Below, piece by piece: positions 37,481 through 48,535 of a DNA stretch of 64,000 nt. The translations under genes and the position numbers were made by a program. The stretch covers positions 2,232,001-2,296,000 of the forward strand of contig CP069419.1 of assembly GCA_017569285.1 (NCBI GenBank), read 5' to 3'. Every line of letters begins with the position of its first letter. The first letter of the stretch is position 1. Source of the DNA: Clostridiales bacterium. Its GTDB lineage: Bacteria; Bacillota; Clostridia; Christensenellales; Aristaeellaceae. Under the pieces are notes generated by a model. The model saw only the letters and a program-made list of their open reading frames with translations, had not been told where the DNA came from and did no database searches.

Positions 37481-38422
37481 TTGCAGAAGACTGCAGCTGA
37501 GCGGAAACGGATGAGAACCCGCCTGTATTTCAAGGACAACTGGCAGATGTATCTCATGATCCTGGTTCCGATTATTTTCGTTTTCCTGTTTAAATACGCT
37601 GCCTACCCGGGCCTGCGCGTTGCCTTCATGAACTACAAGCCGGCCAAAGGCTTTGAAGGAAGCGAATACGTCGGTTTCCAGATTTTTGAGAAGATTTTCA
37701 AGGACCGGGACTTCCTCCGGGCGCTGAAGAACAGCCTGGTGTTCAACTTCCTGGACCTGCTGGTCGGCTTCCCGGTACCGATCATCCTGGCCCTGCTGCT
37801 GAATGAGCTCCGCTTCCCGCGGTACAAGAAGCTGACCCAGACGGTGCTGTACCTGCCGCACTTCCTGAGCTGGGTCATCATCGGCAGCGTGGCGCTGAGC
37901 CTTTTCAAACCCCAGACCGGCCTCGTCAACATACTGCTGCGGGATCTCCTGGGCTGGGTGGACAAGGGCGTTCCTTTCCTGACGGAAAAGTGGCACTGGG
38001 GCGCGACCTACCTGCTGATCGGCGTATGGCAGAACATGGGATGGGGATCCATCATCTACCTGGCGGCCATCACCGGCATCAGCCCGGACCTGTATGAAGC
38101 GGCAACCATCGACGGCGCCGGCCGCTGGCGCAAAATCTGGAATGTGACGCTGCCGTGCATCCGCGGCACGATGGTGACCCTGCTGATTATGAACCTCGGC
38201 CGGGTAATGGGCAGCAACTTTGAACGGCTGGATTCCCTGGGCAACGTCCAGGTGAAGGAATTCCAGTACCAGCTGGCCATCTACACCTACGAGAAGGGAC
38301 TTGCGGGCGGCAACTTCAGCCGGGCCACGGCGGTCGGCCTGTTCCAGTCCCTGGTAGGCCTGATCCTTGTACTTGCGTCCGACCGGGCAGCGAAAGCGCT
38401 CGGCGAGGACGGACTGCTGTGA
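37481..38422 (+). CDS. Sugar ABC transporter permease, LplB type
   Basis: 313 residues; TTG start after GGGGGAAGG. Six membrane helices are expected: the first is MYLMILVPIIFVFLFKY, and the EAA loop is YEAATIDGAGRWRKIWNVTLPCIRG. The protein is of the LplB family, which typically pairs with a YtcP/LplC-type permease and a large binding protein and imports complex oligosaccharides, often pectic ones. It is the first gene of the operon with a second permease, binding protein, GH112 and rhaM. The cargo is probably galactosyl-rhamnose-containing RG-I fragments (inferred). Confidence 0.92.
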   Translation: MQKTAAERKRMRTRLYFKDNWQMYLMILVPIIFVFLFKYAAYPGLRVAFMNYKPAKGFEGSEYVGFQIFEKIFKDRDFLRALKNSLVFNFLDLLVGFPVPIILALLLNELRFPRYKKLTQTVLYLPHFLSWVIIGSVALSLFKPQTGLVNILLRDLLGWVDKGVPFLTEKWHWGATYLLIGVWQNMGWGSIIYLAAITGISPDLYEAATIDGAGRWRKIWNVTLPCIRGTMVTLLIMNLGRVMGSNFERLDSLGNVQVKEFQYQLAIYTYEKGLAGGNFSRATAVGLFQSLVGLILVLASDRAAKALGEDGLL

Positions 38423-38438
38423 GGAAGGGGGAAGAAAG

Positions 38439-39347
38439 ATGACGACGATTTCCCCGGCCAAGAAGACCGGCGCTTTCAGCGGTGTAAAGCGGCTCCGGAT
38501 CAGCGATTTCGTGATCGCGTTCATTATCCTGGTGCTTTCCCTGACCTGTGTGATCCCGTTCCTGCATGTCGGCGCCAAGAGCATCTCCTCCAACACGGCG
38601 GTGATGAGCAAGCAGGTGTACCTGTGGCCAAAGGACCTGAATTTCAACGCGTATGAAGCTGTTTTCAAGGACGGGCAGCTGACGCACTCCATGGTCTACA
38701 CGATCTGGATGACGGTCCTGTTCACTGTGATCGGCATGATCATCACGATCCTGGCGGCGTATCCGCTGGCCCGGAAGGAACTGAAGGGACGCAGCCTTTT
38801 CGCCTTCATCCTGATGTTTACGATGTACTTCAGCGCCGGCCTGATCCCCGAGTACCTGCTGTACCGGGACCTGGGCCTGATCAACTCCATGTGGGTGCTG
38901 GTGCTGCCGCTGTCGTTCTCCCCGTACAACATGCTGATCATGCGGTCCTTCATCCGCTCCACGATTCCGGACAGCCTGTACGAGGCGGCCAACCTGGACG
39001 GCGCTTCGCACTTCCAGATCCTGTTCAAGGTGGTGCTTCCGCTGTCCAAGCCGATCCTGGCAACGCTGGCCCTGTTCTACGCGGTGGGCCGCTGGAACGC
39101 CTACGCGGACGCCAAGTACTACATTACGACGAAATCCCTGCAGCCGCTGCAGTACCTGCTGAGTAACATGGTGCTCAACAGCGGGCAGGAAGCCATGAGC
39201 CTTTCCGAAGCCAGCGCGGCCGAATCCACCCCCGAGGTGCTGCAGTCCGCGGTGGTCATGTTCGCAACGATCCCGATCATCCTGGTGTATCCCTTCGTGC
39301 AGAAGTACTTTGTGCAGGGTACCATGATCGGCGCTGTGAAGGGATGA
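38439..39347 (+). CDS. Sugar ABC transporter permease, YtcP/LplC type
   Basis: 302 residues from ATG 38439 (AGGGGGAAG upstream). MalG-like: the first helix is FVIAFIILVLSLTCVIPFLHV, the EAA loop is YEAANLDGASHFQILFKVVLPLSKP, and the end YFVQGTMIGAVKG is typical. It partners the preceding LplB-type permease. The stop codon is at once followed by a structured RNA element (39348-39443) that separates it from the binding-protein gene. Confidence 0.92.
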   Translation: MTTISPAKKTGAFSGVKRLRISDFVIAFIILVLSLTCVIPFLHVGAKSISSNTAVMSKQVYLWPKDLNFNAYEAVFKDGQLTHSMVYTIWMTVLFTVIGMIITILAAYPLARKELKGRSLFAFILMFTMYFSAGLIPEYLLYRDLGLINSMWVLVLPLSFSPYNMLIMRSFIRSTIPDSLYEAANLDGASHFQILFKVVLPLSKPILATLALFYAVGRWNAYADAKYYITTKSLQPLQYLLSNMVLNSGQEAMSLSEASAAESTPEVLQSAVVMFATIPIILVYPFVQKYFVQGTMIGAVKG

Positions 39348-39443
39348 ACATCTGACGACCCGCAGTGCGGGGAGTTTCGTCAGATGTGAATTCAACCGAA
39401 AGGGAGCAAGCTCCCCGGTGGGGAGTTGCGACCATTGAGGTTG
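39348..39443 (+). ncRNA. Structured RNA element, copy 1 (undescribed, intercistronic)
   Basis: Stem A: ACATCTGACGA (39348-39358) pairs with TCGTCAGATGT (39377-39387), enclosing hairpin CCCGCAGTGCGGG (39359-39371). Stem B: CAACC (39393) pairs with GGTTG (39439), enclosing GAAAGG, AGCAAG, hairpin CTCCCCGGTGGGGAG (39411-39425) and the unpaired TTGCGACCATTGA. A second copy at 46827-46923 keeps the loops and unpaired bases but changes both members of many pairs. It starts one base after the permease stop and lies about 95 bases before the binding-protein Shine-Dalgarno site. I do not recognise it as a named RNA class. Confidence 0.75.
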
Positions 39444-39538
39444 CGGATGCATGGAAAAAGCCAATTGCCTTACCTGCTCTATATATTTCGGAACCCTGGG
39501 CGCGGAATGCCCTGAATGATAAAAAGGAGGTTACCCTA

Positions 39539-41182
39539 ATGAAAAAACTCGTATCTGTGCTGCTGACACTGTGCCTGCTCATGAGCCTGGTCGCGGTTGC
39601 GGCGGCGGAAGCCCCCGCCGGCATCGAAGGCTGGGAACCCTTCGCGGAGCGCGTGAAGATCACCGTGCCCGTGTATGACCGTTCCAAGGCCGGCTATCCT
39701 GCCGTGGATGACAACTACTGGACCAAGTGGATCCAGGAGAACTTCGGTGACAAGTACAACATCGACGTGCAGTATGTCGCCATCCCCCGCGGTGACGTGA
39801 TGATGAAGTACTCCACCCTGATCGCCGCGAAGGAAACCCCCACCATCATGATGGAATACGACTATCCGAAGGTTGCGCAGTGGGCCAATGACGGCGCGAT
39901 GCAGGTGATCGACCTGGAAGCCTTCGCCAAGGTTGCCCCGACGTTCTACCAGGCGATGGTGGACAACAACCAGCTGGGCTACACCGACATCAACGGAAAG
40001 ACCTACTTCGTGCTGACCGAGCGTCCCTACTACAACACCACCTTCGCTTTCGCCACCTTCGTTCGGATGGACTGGCTGCGCAAGGTTGGCTATGACCATG
40101 TGCCCGCGAATTACACCGAGTATGTGGATGCCATCAACAAGATGATTGAGGCCGGCCTGACCAAGAACCCCGTTGGCGCCGGTATCCCCACCAGCGCCTA
40201 CATCACCAACTTCGGCTTCCGTGATTTCCCGGTCAGCGATGAAGGTGAAAAGGAATGGGCCATGCACTCTTCCCTGGGAACGCCCGGCTTCCCCTGGTAT
40301 CCCACCAAGCGGCTGCTGCAGCGCGCGAACGCTGAGTACCACATGGGCTGGTATTCCGAAGAGTTCGACCTGGACAAGAACTCCTCCGGTATGGCGACCG
40401 ACCAGACCCAGACCGACTTCATCAACGGCCTGACCTATTCCTATGGCGGATACATCGGCACCAACATGGCGTGGCTGACCGCTTTCTATGAAAACAATCC
40501 CGATGCCGAACTCGCGCTGGCCAGCCCCTACGGCGGCGTTGAGGAAGGCGTCAACACCGGCTGCATCCGCGCGGACAACCCCTTCGGCATGATCGTCGGC
40601 TTCTCCAACCTGGCAACGGAAGACCAGCTGAAGGCTGCCTGGATGCTGATGGAGTGGATGATCCAGCCTGAAAACCTCTTCGTGCTGGAGAACGGCGTCG
40701 AAGGCAAGACCTACGAACTCGGCGAAGACGGCCTGCCCCGGATGCTGGAGTACACCGGCGAGGAAATGATGAACCACAACAACAACATCGACATGACCTG
40801 CCTCGTGCATGCTTCCAAGAAGGTCGGCACGATCGAGCAGACCATCGCCCAGATGAGCCCCGTGGGCCTGCCCCAGGATTTCACCCAGGCGCTGATCGAC
40901 AACTACTACCAGCTGAAGGAAATCGCGGATTCCGGCAAGGCCTACTCTGACCCGGTGTTCGCGGTGGCCATCGAGAGCGAGAGCGAATACTCCGCCACCC
41001 TGCTGAGCCTGTACCAGGAATACTACGCAAAGCTCGTGAAGTGTGATCCGGCTGAATTCGACGGCCTGTTCGACCAGTTCAGCCAGGAATTCCTGGATGC
41101 CGGTTACCAGGAGATCATGGACGAGCGCCTGGCGGCGTTTGAAGCCGGCCAGACCACCCGCCTGCCCGCCAACGCGAAGTAA
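39539..41182 (+). CDS. Extracellular solute-binding protein of sugar ABC transporter (LplA-like)
   Basis: 547 residues from ATG 39539 with AAAAAGGAGG upstream. The signal peptide (MKKLVSVLLTLCLLMSLVAV, cleavage near AAA-EAP) has no lipobox; its Cys lies inside the hydrophobic core. The mature part is the large family 1 type with VPVYDRSKAGYP, PTIMMEYDYPKVAQWANDGA, YFVLTERPYYNTTFAF and a C-terminal helical region. It works with the two upstream permeases. High expression is suggested by the structured element before it and a terminator after it. Confidence 0.91.
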   Translation: MKKLVSVLLTLCLLMSLVAVAAAEAPAGIEGWEPFAERVKITVPVYDRSKAGYPAVDDNYWTKWIQENFGDKYNIDVQYVAIPRGDVMMKYSTLIAAKETPTIMMEYDYPKVAQWANDGAMQVIDLEAFAKVAPTFYQAMVDNNQLGYTDINGKTYFVLTERPYYNTTFAFATFVRMDWLRKVGYDHVPANYTEYVDAINKMIEAGLTKNPVGAGIPTSAYITNFGFRDFPVSDEGEKEWAMHSSLGTPGFPWYPTKRLLQRANAEYHMGWYSEEFDLDKNSSGMATDQTQTDFINGLTYSYGGYIGTNMAWLTAFYENNPDAELALASPYGGVEEGVNTGCIRADNPFGMIVGFSNLATEDQLKAAWMLMEWMIQPENLFVLENGVEGKTYELGEDGLPRMLEYTGEEMMNHNNNIDMTCLVHASKKVGTIEQTIAQMSPVGLPQDFTQALIDNYYQLKEIADSGKAYSDPVFAVAIESESEYSATLLSLYQEYYAKLVKCDPAEFDGLFDQFSQEFLDAGYQEIMDERLAAFEAGQTTRLPANAK

Positions 41183-45889: not shown

Positions 45890-46828
45890 ATGACAACGAT
45901 ACCTGCCTCCCAGAAAAAGATGAAGATCTCCACCGGCCCGGTCGGCCAGAACGCCACCTTCGGAAGCCGGCTCTTCGACATCGCGAACTACCTGATTGTA
46001 ACCATCATCGCGCTGACGACGATCTTCCCGTTCATCTATATCATCGGCGCATCGTTCGCAACGGAGTATGAAATCGCCACCCGGCCGATGTTCATCATTC
46101 CCCAGAACGCGAGTACCGCTGCCTATGAGTACATCTTCTCCTCGAACAAGATCCTCCGCGGCTTCGGCAACTCCATCTTCATCACGGTCTGCGGTACGGC
46201 GATCAACCTGTTCTTCACCGTGACCATGGCGTACGCCCTGTCCAAGACGCGGCTGCGCGGCCGGAACTTCTTCCTGAACATGGTCATCATCTCGATGTTC
46301 TTCTCCGGCGGCATGATCCCGGGATACATCGTGGTGGCCAATATCCTGAACCTGAAGAACACCTACTGGTCCGTGCTGCTGCCCGGCGCGATCAGCGCGT
46401 ACAACATGATGATCGTGAAGAACTTCTTCCAGGGCATCCCGCAGGAGCTGGAGGAATCCGCCTCCATGGACGGGTGTACGGACATGGGCGTCCTCTGGAA
46501 GATTGTGCTTCCGCTGTCCCTGCCGGTGCTGGCGACCTTCGGCCTGTTCTACGCGGTGGGCCACTGGAACGCCTACTTCGGCGCCATGATCTATATGAAG
46601 ACCGCCAAGGAGAAGTGGCCGCTGCAGGTGCTGCTGCGTGAACTGATCATCCTGTCCAGCGGTACGGCCGGCGACATGAACAACCTGGATCCCGAGTTCG
46701 TCCAGCCGCCGGAACAGTCCGTGAAGATGGCGGTGATCGTGGTCTCCACCGTTCCGATCATGATGGTTTACCCCTTCCTGCAGAAGTACTTCGTGAAGGG
46801 CGTAATGGTCGGTGCTCTCAAAGGATAA
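45890..46828 (+). CDS. Sugar ABC transporter permease, YtcP/LplC type
   Basis: 312 residues, with GGGAGG upstream. The MalG-like EAA loop LEESASMDGCTDMGVLWKIVLPLSLP and the end YFVKGVMVGALKG are clear. The last two bases of its stop codon are the first bases of stem A of the second structured RNA element, so translation termination and RNA folding may interfere with each other. Confidence 0.92.
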   Translation: MTTIPASQKKMKISTGPVGQNATFGSRLFDIANYLIVTIIALTTIFPFIYIIGASFATEYEIATRPMFIIPQNASTAAYEYIFSSNKILRGFGNSIFITVCGTAINLFFTVTMAYALSKTRLRGRNFFLNMVIISMFFSGGMIPGYIVVANILNLKNTYWSVLLPGAISAYNMMIVKNFFQGIPQELEESASMDGCTDMGVLWKIVLPLSLPVLATFGLFYAVGHWNAYFGAMIYMKTAKEKWPLQVLLRELIILSSGTAGDMNNLDPEFVQPPEQSVKMAVIVVSTVPIMMVYPFLQKYFVKGVMVGALKG

Positions 46829-46923
46829 TATTCGATGACCCGCAGTGCGGGAAATCTCATCGAATATTATCTCAAGCGAAAGGAAGCAAGCTCCGCAGTG
46901 CGGAGTTGCGACCATTGAGCTTG
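46827..46923 (+). ncRNA. Structured RNA element, copy 2 (undescribed, intercistronic)
   Basis: Stem A: AATATTCGATGA (46827-46838) pairs with TCATCGAATATT (46857-46868) around CCCGCAGTGCGGG (46839-46851). Stem B: CAAGC (46873) pairs with GCTTG (46919) around hairpin CTCCGCAGTGCGGAG (46891-46905). GAAAGG, AGCAAG and TTGCGACCATTGA are as in copy 1, while stem A is wholly different in sequence and stem B and the inner hairpin show C-G to G-C swaps. A further hairpin (GACCTAA / TTAGGTT, about 46929-46967) follows here but not in copy 1. Its position, between permease and binding protein, is the same. Confidence 0.76.
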
Positions 46924-47026
46924 CGTTGCGACCTAAGAGCATCGGATTTGGCAAACCAATTTAGGTTGTCATCAGCGATGAGAAGCGCTGTTGAACGATA
47001 AATAAATTACTTAAGGAGGCTTACCC

Positions 47027-48535
47027 ATGAAGAAACTTCTCTCTGTGATCCTGGCTCTGCTCCTTGCCCTCGGCATGATGAGCTTTGCCGCCGCGGAAGA
47101 ACCCTTCGAAATCACCGTAATGGTGCCCGAGTTCACGTATGACGCGGACTATGTGGAAGAAGGCAACCCCATCCTCGCGAAGATCGAGGAGCTGACCGGC
47201 GTGAAGCTGAAGATGCAGTTCATGGCCAATGAAGGCTATGGCGACACCATCAGCACCACCATGACCGAGAACAATCCCCCCATGGTGATGGCGGTGACGG
47301 ATGCCCGCGCTCCCATCATTGTGGAATCCGCCCGTGCCGGCGCGTTCTGGGATCTGACTGATTTCGTGTCTGACGCGGAAAACTATCCCTACCTGGCTGC
47401 CGGTTCCCCCGCTGTTTACCAGAACATCGCGGTGGACGGCCGTGTGTACGGCATCTTCCGCGGCCGTGCCTTCCCGCGCGGCGGCGTCTACTATCGCTGC
47501 GACATCGCGAAGGAAGCCGGATTTGACCGCGAAGTCAAGACCATCGACGACCTGACCGAACTGGCTGAGAAGCTGGCGAAGTACAGCGATGACACCTATG
47601 CCCTGAATATGTGCTCCTACACCGCCGGCACGATCAACGTGATCACCGTCATGATGGGCGCTCCGAACGGCTGGGGCATCGACGAGAACGGCGACATCTA
47701 TCCCGCCCACCTGTCCCCCGCTTACCTCGAAGGCCTGAACTGGCTGCGCCACCTGTATGAAATCGGCGGCATCGACCCCGACTTCTCCCAGATCCCGACC
47801 TCCGAGTGGGACAATATCGAGCGGACCGGCAAGGCGTTCATGCGGTTTGACTGCCTGGACAACGCACATCGTCAGCAGTGGTGGTTCGAAGACAACGCCG
47901 GTGTGACCGAACAGGTCTGGCAGTCCTGCGGACCGATCGCCAAGGCAGACGGCTCCATCACCACATGGCCGCAGAACAACGGCTTCGCCGGTGAGATCCT
48001 GATCAACAAGAAGAGCGTCTCCGAAGAAGACCTGCCCAAGGTTGTGAAGTTCCTCGACTGGTGCAACGGCCCCGAAGGCCAGACGATCCTGAATGCCGGT
48101 CTCGAAGGCGTGACCTTCGACATCAACGAAGACGGCCTCCGTTATGTGCCCGAAGACAAGTCTGAAGAATACGGAAAGAACAGCAAGGCTTACCTGCATG
48201 ACTTCAACCAGCTGGGCATGGGCGTTCCCGGAAACCTGGAGAACCCGAAGGCTGTGCTGAGCCGCGGTTACACCAAGCTGCGTGACCGTTATGACGAACT
48301 GAACATCGAGCTGGCTCCCTACGCGGTGGCCAACCCCTGCTTCCCGTTCGTGAGCGAGACCTACCAGGCATTCGGCACCCAGCTGGATCCCATTATCTCC
48401 GACGCGGCTGTGCAGTACATCGCAGGCCTGATCGACGAAGCTGGCCTCCGTGCTGCCTGGGCTGACTGGGCTGCGCAGGGCGGCGACCAGGTAACTGCTG
48501 AGTACAACGAAGCCTATCATGCTTCCATCCAGTAA
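47027..48535 (+). CDS. Extracellular solute-binding protein of sugar ABC transporter
   Basis: 502 residues with AAGGAGG upstream. The signal peptide MKKLLSVILALLLALGMMSF (cleavage near AAA-EEP) contains no Cys. The mature protein begins FEITVMVPEFTYDADYVEEG and has ENNPPMVMAVTDARAPII and WGIDENGDIYPAHLSP, typical of the LplA-like family that works with LplB/YtcP permeases. A hairpin follows the gene, probably stabilising its mRNA end while letting some transcription continue into the enzyme genes. Confidence 0.91.
   Translation: MKKLLSVILALLLALGMMSFAAAEEPFEITVMVPEFTYDADYVEEGNPILAKIEELTGVKLKMQFMANEGYGDTISTTMTENNPPMVMAVTDARAPIIVESARAGAFWDLTDFVSDAENYPYLAAGSPAVYQNIAVDGRVYGIFRGRAFPRGGVYYRCDIAKEAGFDREVKTIDDLTELAEKLAKYSDDTYALNMCSYTAGTINVITVMMGAPNGWGIDENGDIYPAHLSPAYLEGLNWLRHLYEIGGIDPDFSQIPTSEWDNIERTGKAFMRFDCLDNAHRQQWWFEDNAGVTEQVWQSCGPIAKADGSITTWPQNNGFAGEILINKKSVSEEDLPKVVKFLDWCNGPEGQTILNAGLEGVTFDINEDGLRYVPEDKSEEYGKNSKAYLHDFNQLGMGVPGNLENPKAVLSRGYTKLRDRYDELNIELAPYAVANPCFPFVSETYQAFGTQLDPIISDAAVQYIAGLIDEAGLRAAWADWAAQGGDQVTAEYNEAYHASIQ

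Follow-up and report, generated by a model that had tools for sequence, protein, structure and literature searches.

A dispersed two-hairpin element at ABC permease stop codons is probably a new kind of mobile-type structured DNA repeat

The window analysed here, a 64,000-nucleotide stretch of a Clostridiales genome (contig CP069419.1), carries on its forward strand an ABC transporter permease gene (38367-39347, PF00528) followed by a binding-protein gene (39539-41182, PF01547), and a second permease gene (45890-46828, PF00528) likewise followed by a binding-protein gene (47027-48535, PF13416). A lacto-N-biose-phosphorylase-type enzyme and a GH88-type hydrolase are encoded nearby, and the company of these enzymes with the ABC permeases and binding proteins makes a pectin-linked role for the two operons plausible. 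Between permease and binding-protein gene, each operon contains one copy of a two-domain structure of about 100 nt on the same strand. With 72-75% DNA likeness between the two permease genes, both copies may go back to one insertion followed by operon duplication.

Copy 1 (39348-39446) starts one base past the permease stop TGA (39345-39347), as the preliminary description had noted, and the preceding GGGATGA (39341-39347), a Gly codon plus the stop, is the presumed insertion target, read from the sequence and from a register common to 11 permease stops within one base. The first hairpin, P1 (39348-39387), consists of the 11-bp outer stem ACATCTGACGA/TCGTCAGATGT (39348-39358 with 39377-39387) around the inner hairpin CCCGCAGTGCGGG (39359-39371) and a 3′ bulge GAGTT (39372-39376). 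The second hairpin, P2 (39393-39443), is closed by the base stem CAACC/GGTTG and holds GAAAGG, AGCAAG and internal loops with opposed GA steps below the 15-nt apical hairpin CTCCCCGGTGGGGAG. This layout of outer stem and second domain agrees with the earlier reading of 39348-39443, except that TTGCGACCATTGA, previously taken to be unpaired, proved to be mostly the 3′ strand of P2, in which TTGC/GCAA, CC/GG and TT/AA are paired and the opposed GA steps separate the helices. A conserved right end, CGG (39444-39446), follows, and information content places the end of conservation about here; the covariance-model match to copy 1 spans 39339-39451.

Copy 2 (46827-46926, P2 at 46873-46923, model match 46819-46931) lies 7,480 bp away at the equivalent gene position, as had also been reported, its P1 stem overlapping the permease stop TAA (46826-46828), and is 80% identical to copy 1 over 99 nt. 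A 29-base core pattern occurred twice in the window against 0.00 expected. Folded as RNA, the two copies reached z-scores of −5.6 and −5.9, equalled by none of 200 shuffles, and folded as DNA on either strand both reached −6.0 to −7.7 relative to shuffles. Rfam at gathering scores gave no match over the whole window, and permissive settings over 39300-39600 gave a single chance-level L19-leader match (13.9 bits against a cut-off of 36, E 3.6) lying mostly within the permease gene, in keeping with the earlier statement that no named RNA class was known with this consensus. No paper describing the double-hairpin repeat was found in open-access PMC text. The double-hairpin element is a real, previously undescribed structured element.

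A simple pattern search found 8 copies in the element's own genome, and a covariance model built on 10 copies found 49 matches there at E≤1, on both strands. At E≤0.01 each of the 25 genus genomes yielded between 2 and 47 matches, and 16 genomes from other families yielded none. A coarser order-wide search, with 12 candidates scored per genome, returned matches in 7 of 297 genomes, five belonging to the genus and two, both weak (E about 2e-4), to other genera of the same family. Scanning a wider collection of genome contigs with the pattern yielded 37 stretches, of which the covariance model confirmed 35, all in Clostridia, Clostridiales or Christensenellaceae records, many of which refer to gut samples from goats, sheep, deer or buffalo; the pattern matches in Burkholderiaceae (L092) and Chitinophagales (L112) were set aside as chance, the model matching neither.

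These dispersed copies have defined ends, as expected of a MITE or other mobile repeat. Conservation drops sharply at both ends: across 30 own-genome copies no column outside the element (GG...TGCGGA) carries more than 0.4 bits of information. Tandem copies repeat with a unit of 103-104 nt. Some copies sit within other hairpin repeats that are also known in element-free form: among the matches listed, the host sites of L062, L222, L221 and L186:2803 have element-free versions in L213, L193, L115 and L224, respectively, each pair being homologous repeats rather than one site in two strains. Among these listed matches, the element stands after TTTGG where L213 reads TTTGGGTAAC and after GCACGG where L115 reads GCACGGTTC, so that the insertion point at the hairpin-repeat sites is the 3′ foot of the hairpin, with two or three target bases apparently replaced. 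Because the host sites are just about 70-90% alike, the element ends are fixed only to within a few bases, and no target duplication was demonstrated at these insertion sites. Around the copy at L186:2803, genome G001 aligns straight across (93% over 5.1 kb), and in G002 the blocks flanking the same region lie 33 nt apart versus 568 nt in the query; the 568-nt stretch, which carries other repeats besides the element copy, was gained or lost between G023/G001 and G002. The empty sites expected of a mobile repeat were thus found both as homologous element-free host repeats, among the matches listed, and as one orthologous stretch absent from G002.

In two own-genome copies (L014 and L018) P2 is interrupted by another structured sequence, roughly 65 nt long, and repeats therefore nest within one another. 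Four other own-genome matches (L147, L148, L150 and L151) are composite relatives in which a P2 module of this kind (TCAACCGAA...GATTGAGGTTGCGG) is joined to a different 5′ module; several of them lie near tRNA genes or beside sequence resembling a 5S rRNA end, with duplications that resemble tRNA 3′ ends.

Gene context was classified for 92 of the 112 model matches using a simple codon-usage gene caller trained on Pfam-supported genes, which replaced an earlier caller, trained on long ORFs, that called shadow genes. The copies were oriented sense in 33 cases, antisense in 21, convergent in 13 and divergent in 7, with 17 at an edge and 1 inside a gene. Eleven of the 92, all sense, sit on permease ends of the form Lys-Gly-stop (AAR-GGN-TGA/TAA) in one register within one base, the ABC-permease assignment at these sites being by C-terminus likeness, with Pfam run only on the window permeases. 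Once this group is taken out, same-direction copies show no bias (22 sense, 21 antisense); with it included, 46 of 74 copies agree in sense with the gene on their 5′ side (p 0.047) and 40 of 74 with the gene on their 3′ side (p 0.56). The genes after the 11 permease-stop copies comprise seven with a binding-protein match (counting L071, whose match falls just under the curated cut-off), two without a Pfam match, one GH43 and one MalK-like ATPase. The regular sense placement ahead of genes of related function that a riboswitch or leader would show was not found.

The genus offered 26 related junctions between permease and binding-protein genes, of which 22 gave no model match at E≤1. Of the four that did, two matched strongly (the own junction and L125) and two weakly (L123 and L120). 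All four belong to the seven closest junctions, those with binding proteins at least 52% identical; four of these seven thus retain the element or a remnant, and the element can persist at related junctions. Other small hairpin repeats occupy the permease-end spot in L131, L137, L138 and L139, and many further junctions are short and empty. The constant feature is thus the permease end, as expected of an insertion target. At L131 and L137 the permease terminus directly abuts its own inverted copy, which measures about 20 bp at L131 and is imperfect at L137; beyond it lie hairpin arrays with differing stems and a constant linker (TGAATTAT or GTGAAATAT).

Covariation is commonly read as proof of functional RNA. 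Across 103 distinct copies, in an alignment that was fitted to the structure, 97.7% of cells were paired and 670 cells carried a double change, which was seen in 30 of 35 pairs; none of 500 shuffles reached any of these values. Together with the folding and the Rfam result, this supports the earlier view of a structured element outside the known classes and shows that it covaries. The preliminary description had reasoned that hits scattered without gene context and without significant covariation would indicate a simple repeat; the scatter is there, but the covariation is strong. Pairing kept in RNA is expected to leave G·U above A·C, as an A·C mismatch corresponds to G·U only on the opposite strand. 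The copies contained 25 G·U, 39 A·C and 42 other mismatches, the A·C total being inflated by the single pair 79-193, which contributes 15 A·C in a variant subgroup of doubtful alignment and without which the ratio of G·U to A·C is 25:24. By contrast, 27 distinct tRNAs of the same genome gave 30:3, or 26:2 with the register set on Watson-Crick pairs only. Fisher p-values for element versus tRNA, indicative only because the copies are mutually related, were 8.5e-7 for all pairs, 1.3e-4 without pair 79-193 and 1.4e-4 with the stricter tRNA count. By helix, G·U:A·C was 15:11 in the P1 outer stem, 2:4 in the P1 inner stem and 8:24 in P2 (8:9 without pair 79-193). A structure kept as RNA, with G·U tolerated on the transcribed strand, is not what these counts describe; with G·U no commoner than A·C, unlike in the tRNA control, they suggest that pairing is maintained at the DNA level.

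Single-sided mismatches stayed at about one per comparison and double changes rose with copy divergence. This pattern would follow from decay of individual copies alongside preserved hairpins in the lineages that spread, or from correction of one arm by the other. In the closest copy pairs (divergence up to 6%) single-sided changes were at least as common as double ones. Unpaired positions, namely the GA steps and an AGT loop, are also conserved. The opposed GA steps of P2 are nearly invariant (0.85-0.98; alignment columns 74-81 with 190-199) and flank a short covarying helix, which hints that recognition may require sheared G·A pairs.

The search for a mobilising transposase covered the Y1_Tnp family only. 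Y1 transposases, many of RAYT size, were found in 18 of the 25 genus genomes, several of which are incomplete, and the repeat in all 25. Among 29 Y1-transposase loci searched with the model, just two hold a copy: one of 23 RAYT-size loci, at a distance of 1.6 kb, and one of six IS200-type loci (L168), at 0.2 kb. Neither a mobiliser nor an autonomous relative with the ends of this element was found among the Y1 loci searched. By eye, all 19 of the RAYT genes whose flanks were read (L165-L167 and L169-L184) adjoin a different palindrome with GGGACRG, and these palindromes differ from gene to gene. In the 103 distinct copies the left end lacks a GTAG tag, its consensus being GGGCGAA, and no unpaired CGTC tag is present, CGTC where it occurs lying inside a paired P1 arm. 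CGTC-tagged REPs, too, are reported to flank no transposase gene (PMC3733652).

Several explanations have to be set against these data. A cis-acting RNA of sugar ABC operons, either a pectic-sugar riboswitch or a 5′ structure that stabilises or processes binding-protein mRNA, would fit the two window copies, both sense between permease and binding-protein genes, as well as the strong folding and covariation and the retention at four of the seven closest junctions. We regard it as improbable, however: most of the classified copies lie elsewhere in any orientation, two of the 11 permease-stop copies precede a GH43 or a MalK-like ATPase gene, 22 of 26 junctions have no match, Rfam offers none, and the mismatches show no preference for G·U over A·C. 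The earlier proposals of a ligand-sensing riboswitch and of a 5′ structure raising binding-protein mRNA are accordingly unsupported by context, and of the third, a mobile RNA-like repeat, the mobile repeat stands and the RNA nature gives way to a pairing pattern that points to DNA.

Mobilisation as a REP-like repeat by a RAYT (TnpA_REP) transposase of these genomes draws on the frequency of RAYT-size Y1 genes in the genus and on the requirement of E. coli TnpA_REP for the bulge of its palindrome, as reported in PMC8266576, bulged palindromes being what the element offers. Yet the inspected RAYT genes adjoin another palindrome, the left end has no GTAG tag and a single RAYT-size locus holds a copy, so a RAYT as mobiliser is not supported and we consider this explanation unlikely. 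It is more doubtful still that the element is simply palindromic DNA rewritten by replication template switching, its covariation being mutational and requiring neither RNA function nor transposase. Template switching has been proposed as a source of multibase compensatory changes (PMC8794818), and it would suit both the growth of double changes with divergence at a steady level of single-sided mismatches and the permease ends in L131 and L137 that abut their own inverted copies; but conserved unpaired GA steps and AGT loop, persistent bulges and an excess or parity of single-sided changes in the closest pairs speak against it, and sharp ends at a fixed permease-stop position require a defined insertion process.

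Taking these observations together, we consider the element to be probably a non-autonomous, genus-specific DNA repeat of mobile type, about 104 nt long and made of the two bulged hairpins P1 and P2, and a new family of mobile-type structured DNA repeat is the best reading of its kind. Such a repeat would move in single-stranded form, its recognition depending on correctly paired hairpins in the manner of IS200/IS605-type or REP systems, and would enter after GG, the site being either AAR-GGN-stop at a permease gene end or the 3′ foot of a hairpin already in place. The single orientation of this target in permease genes would account for the uniformly sense copies at their stops. In the window operons the element would be carried in mRNA, and any influence on how the binding proteins are expressed would be secondary. 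This mobility model is weakest at the transposase step. More tentatively, we speculate that a single-stranded-DNA mobile system of one gut genus chooses targets by AAR-GGN-stop or by hairpin shape, with elements nesting in each other's bulges and stems rewritten arm from arm, giving covariation of RNA strength even within one genome.

Here, compensatory changes in 30 of 35 pairs belong to a dispersed DNA repeat. Simply comparing the numbers of G·U and A·C mismatches tells this repeat apart from tRNAs of the same genome and could serve as a filter in metagenome searches for structured RNA, and the permease-stop hot spot shows that repeats can lodge in nutrient operons with the genes left unbroken.

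Non-autonomous IS200/IS605-type elements have two subterminal hairpins and a short sequence ahead of the left end, as does this element, for which, however, the Y1 loci searched yielded no autonomous relative with these ends. With riboswitches and leader RNAs it shares a conserved fold, strong covariation and, at some sites, a place in mRNA, but it differs in having no constant downstream gene, no orientation bias beyond permease stops, no G·U preference and no Rfam match; a likeness to hammerhead ribozymes or integron attC sites was weighed and dropped. REP/BIME and RAYT systems (PMC8266576, PMC3733652) similarly comprise many short extragenic bulged palindromes per genome, arranged as heads, tails and clusters, whereas the present element is about 104 nt long, combines two unlike hairpins, lacks the GTAG and unpaired CGTC tags and does not flank the inspected RAYT genes. 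Stem-loop families of bacterial genomes such as Bcr1, ERIC and RPE, covered in a survey (PMC2267715), resemble the element in being intergenic, dispersed repeats with a common fold; relative to these, the element described here belongs to another lineage, has a hot spot at ABC permease stops and carries stems that vary among copies with compensation.
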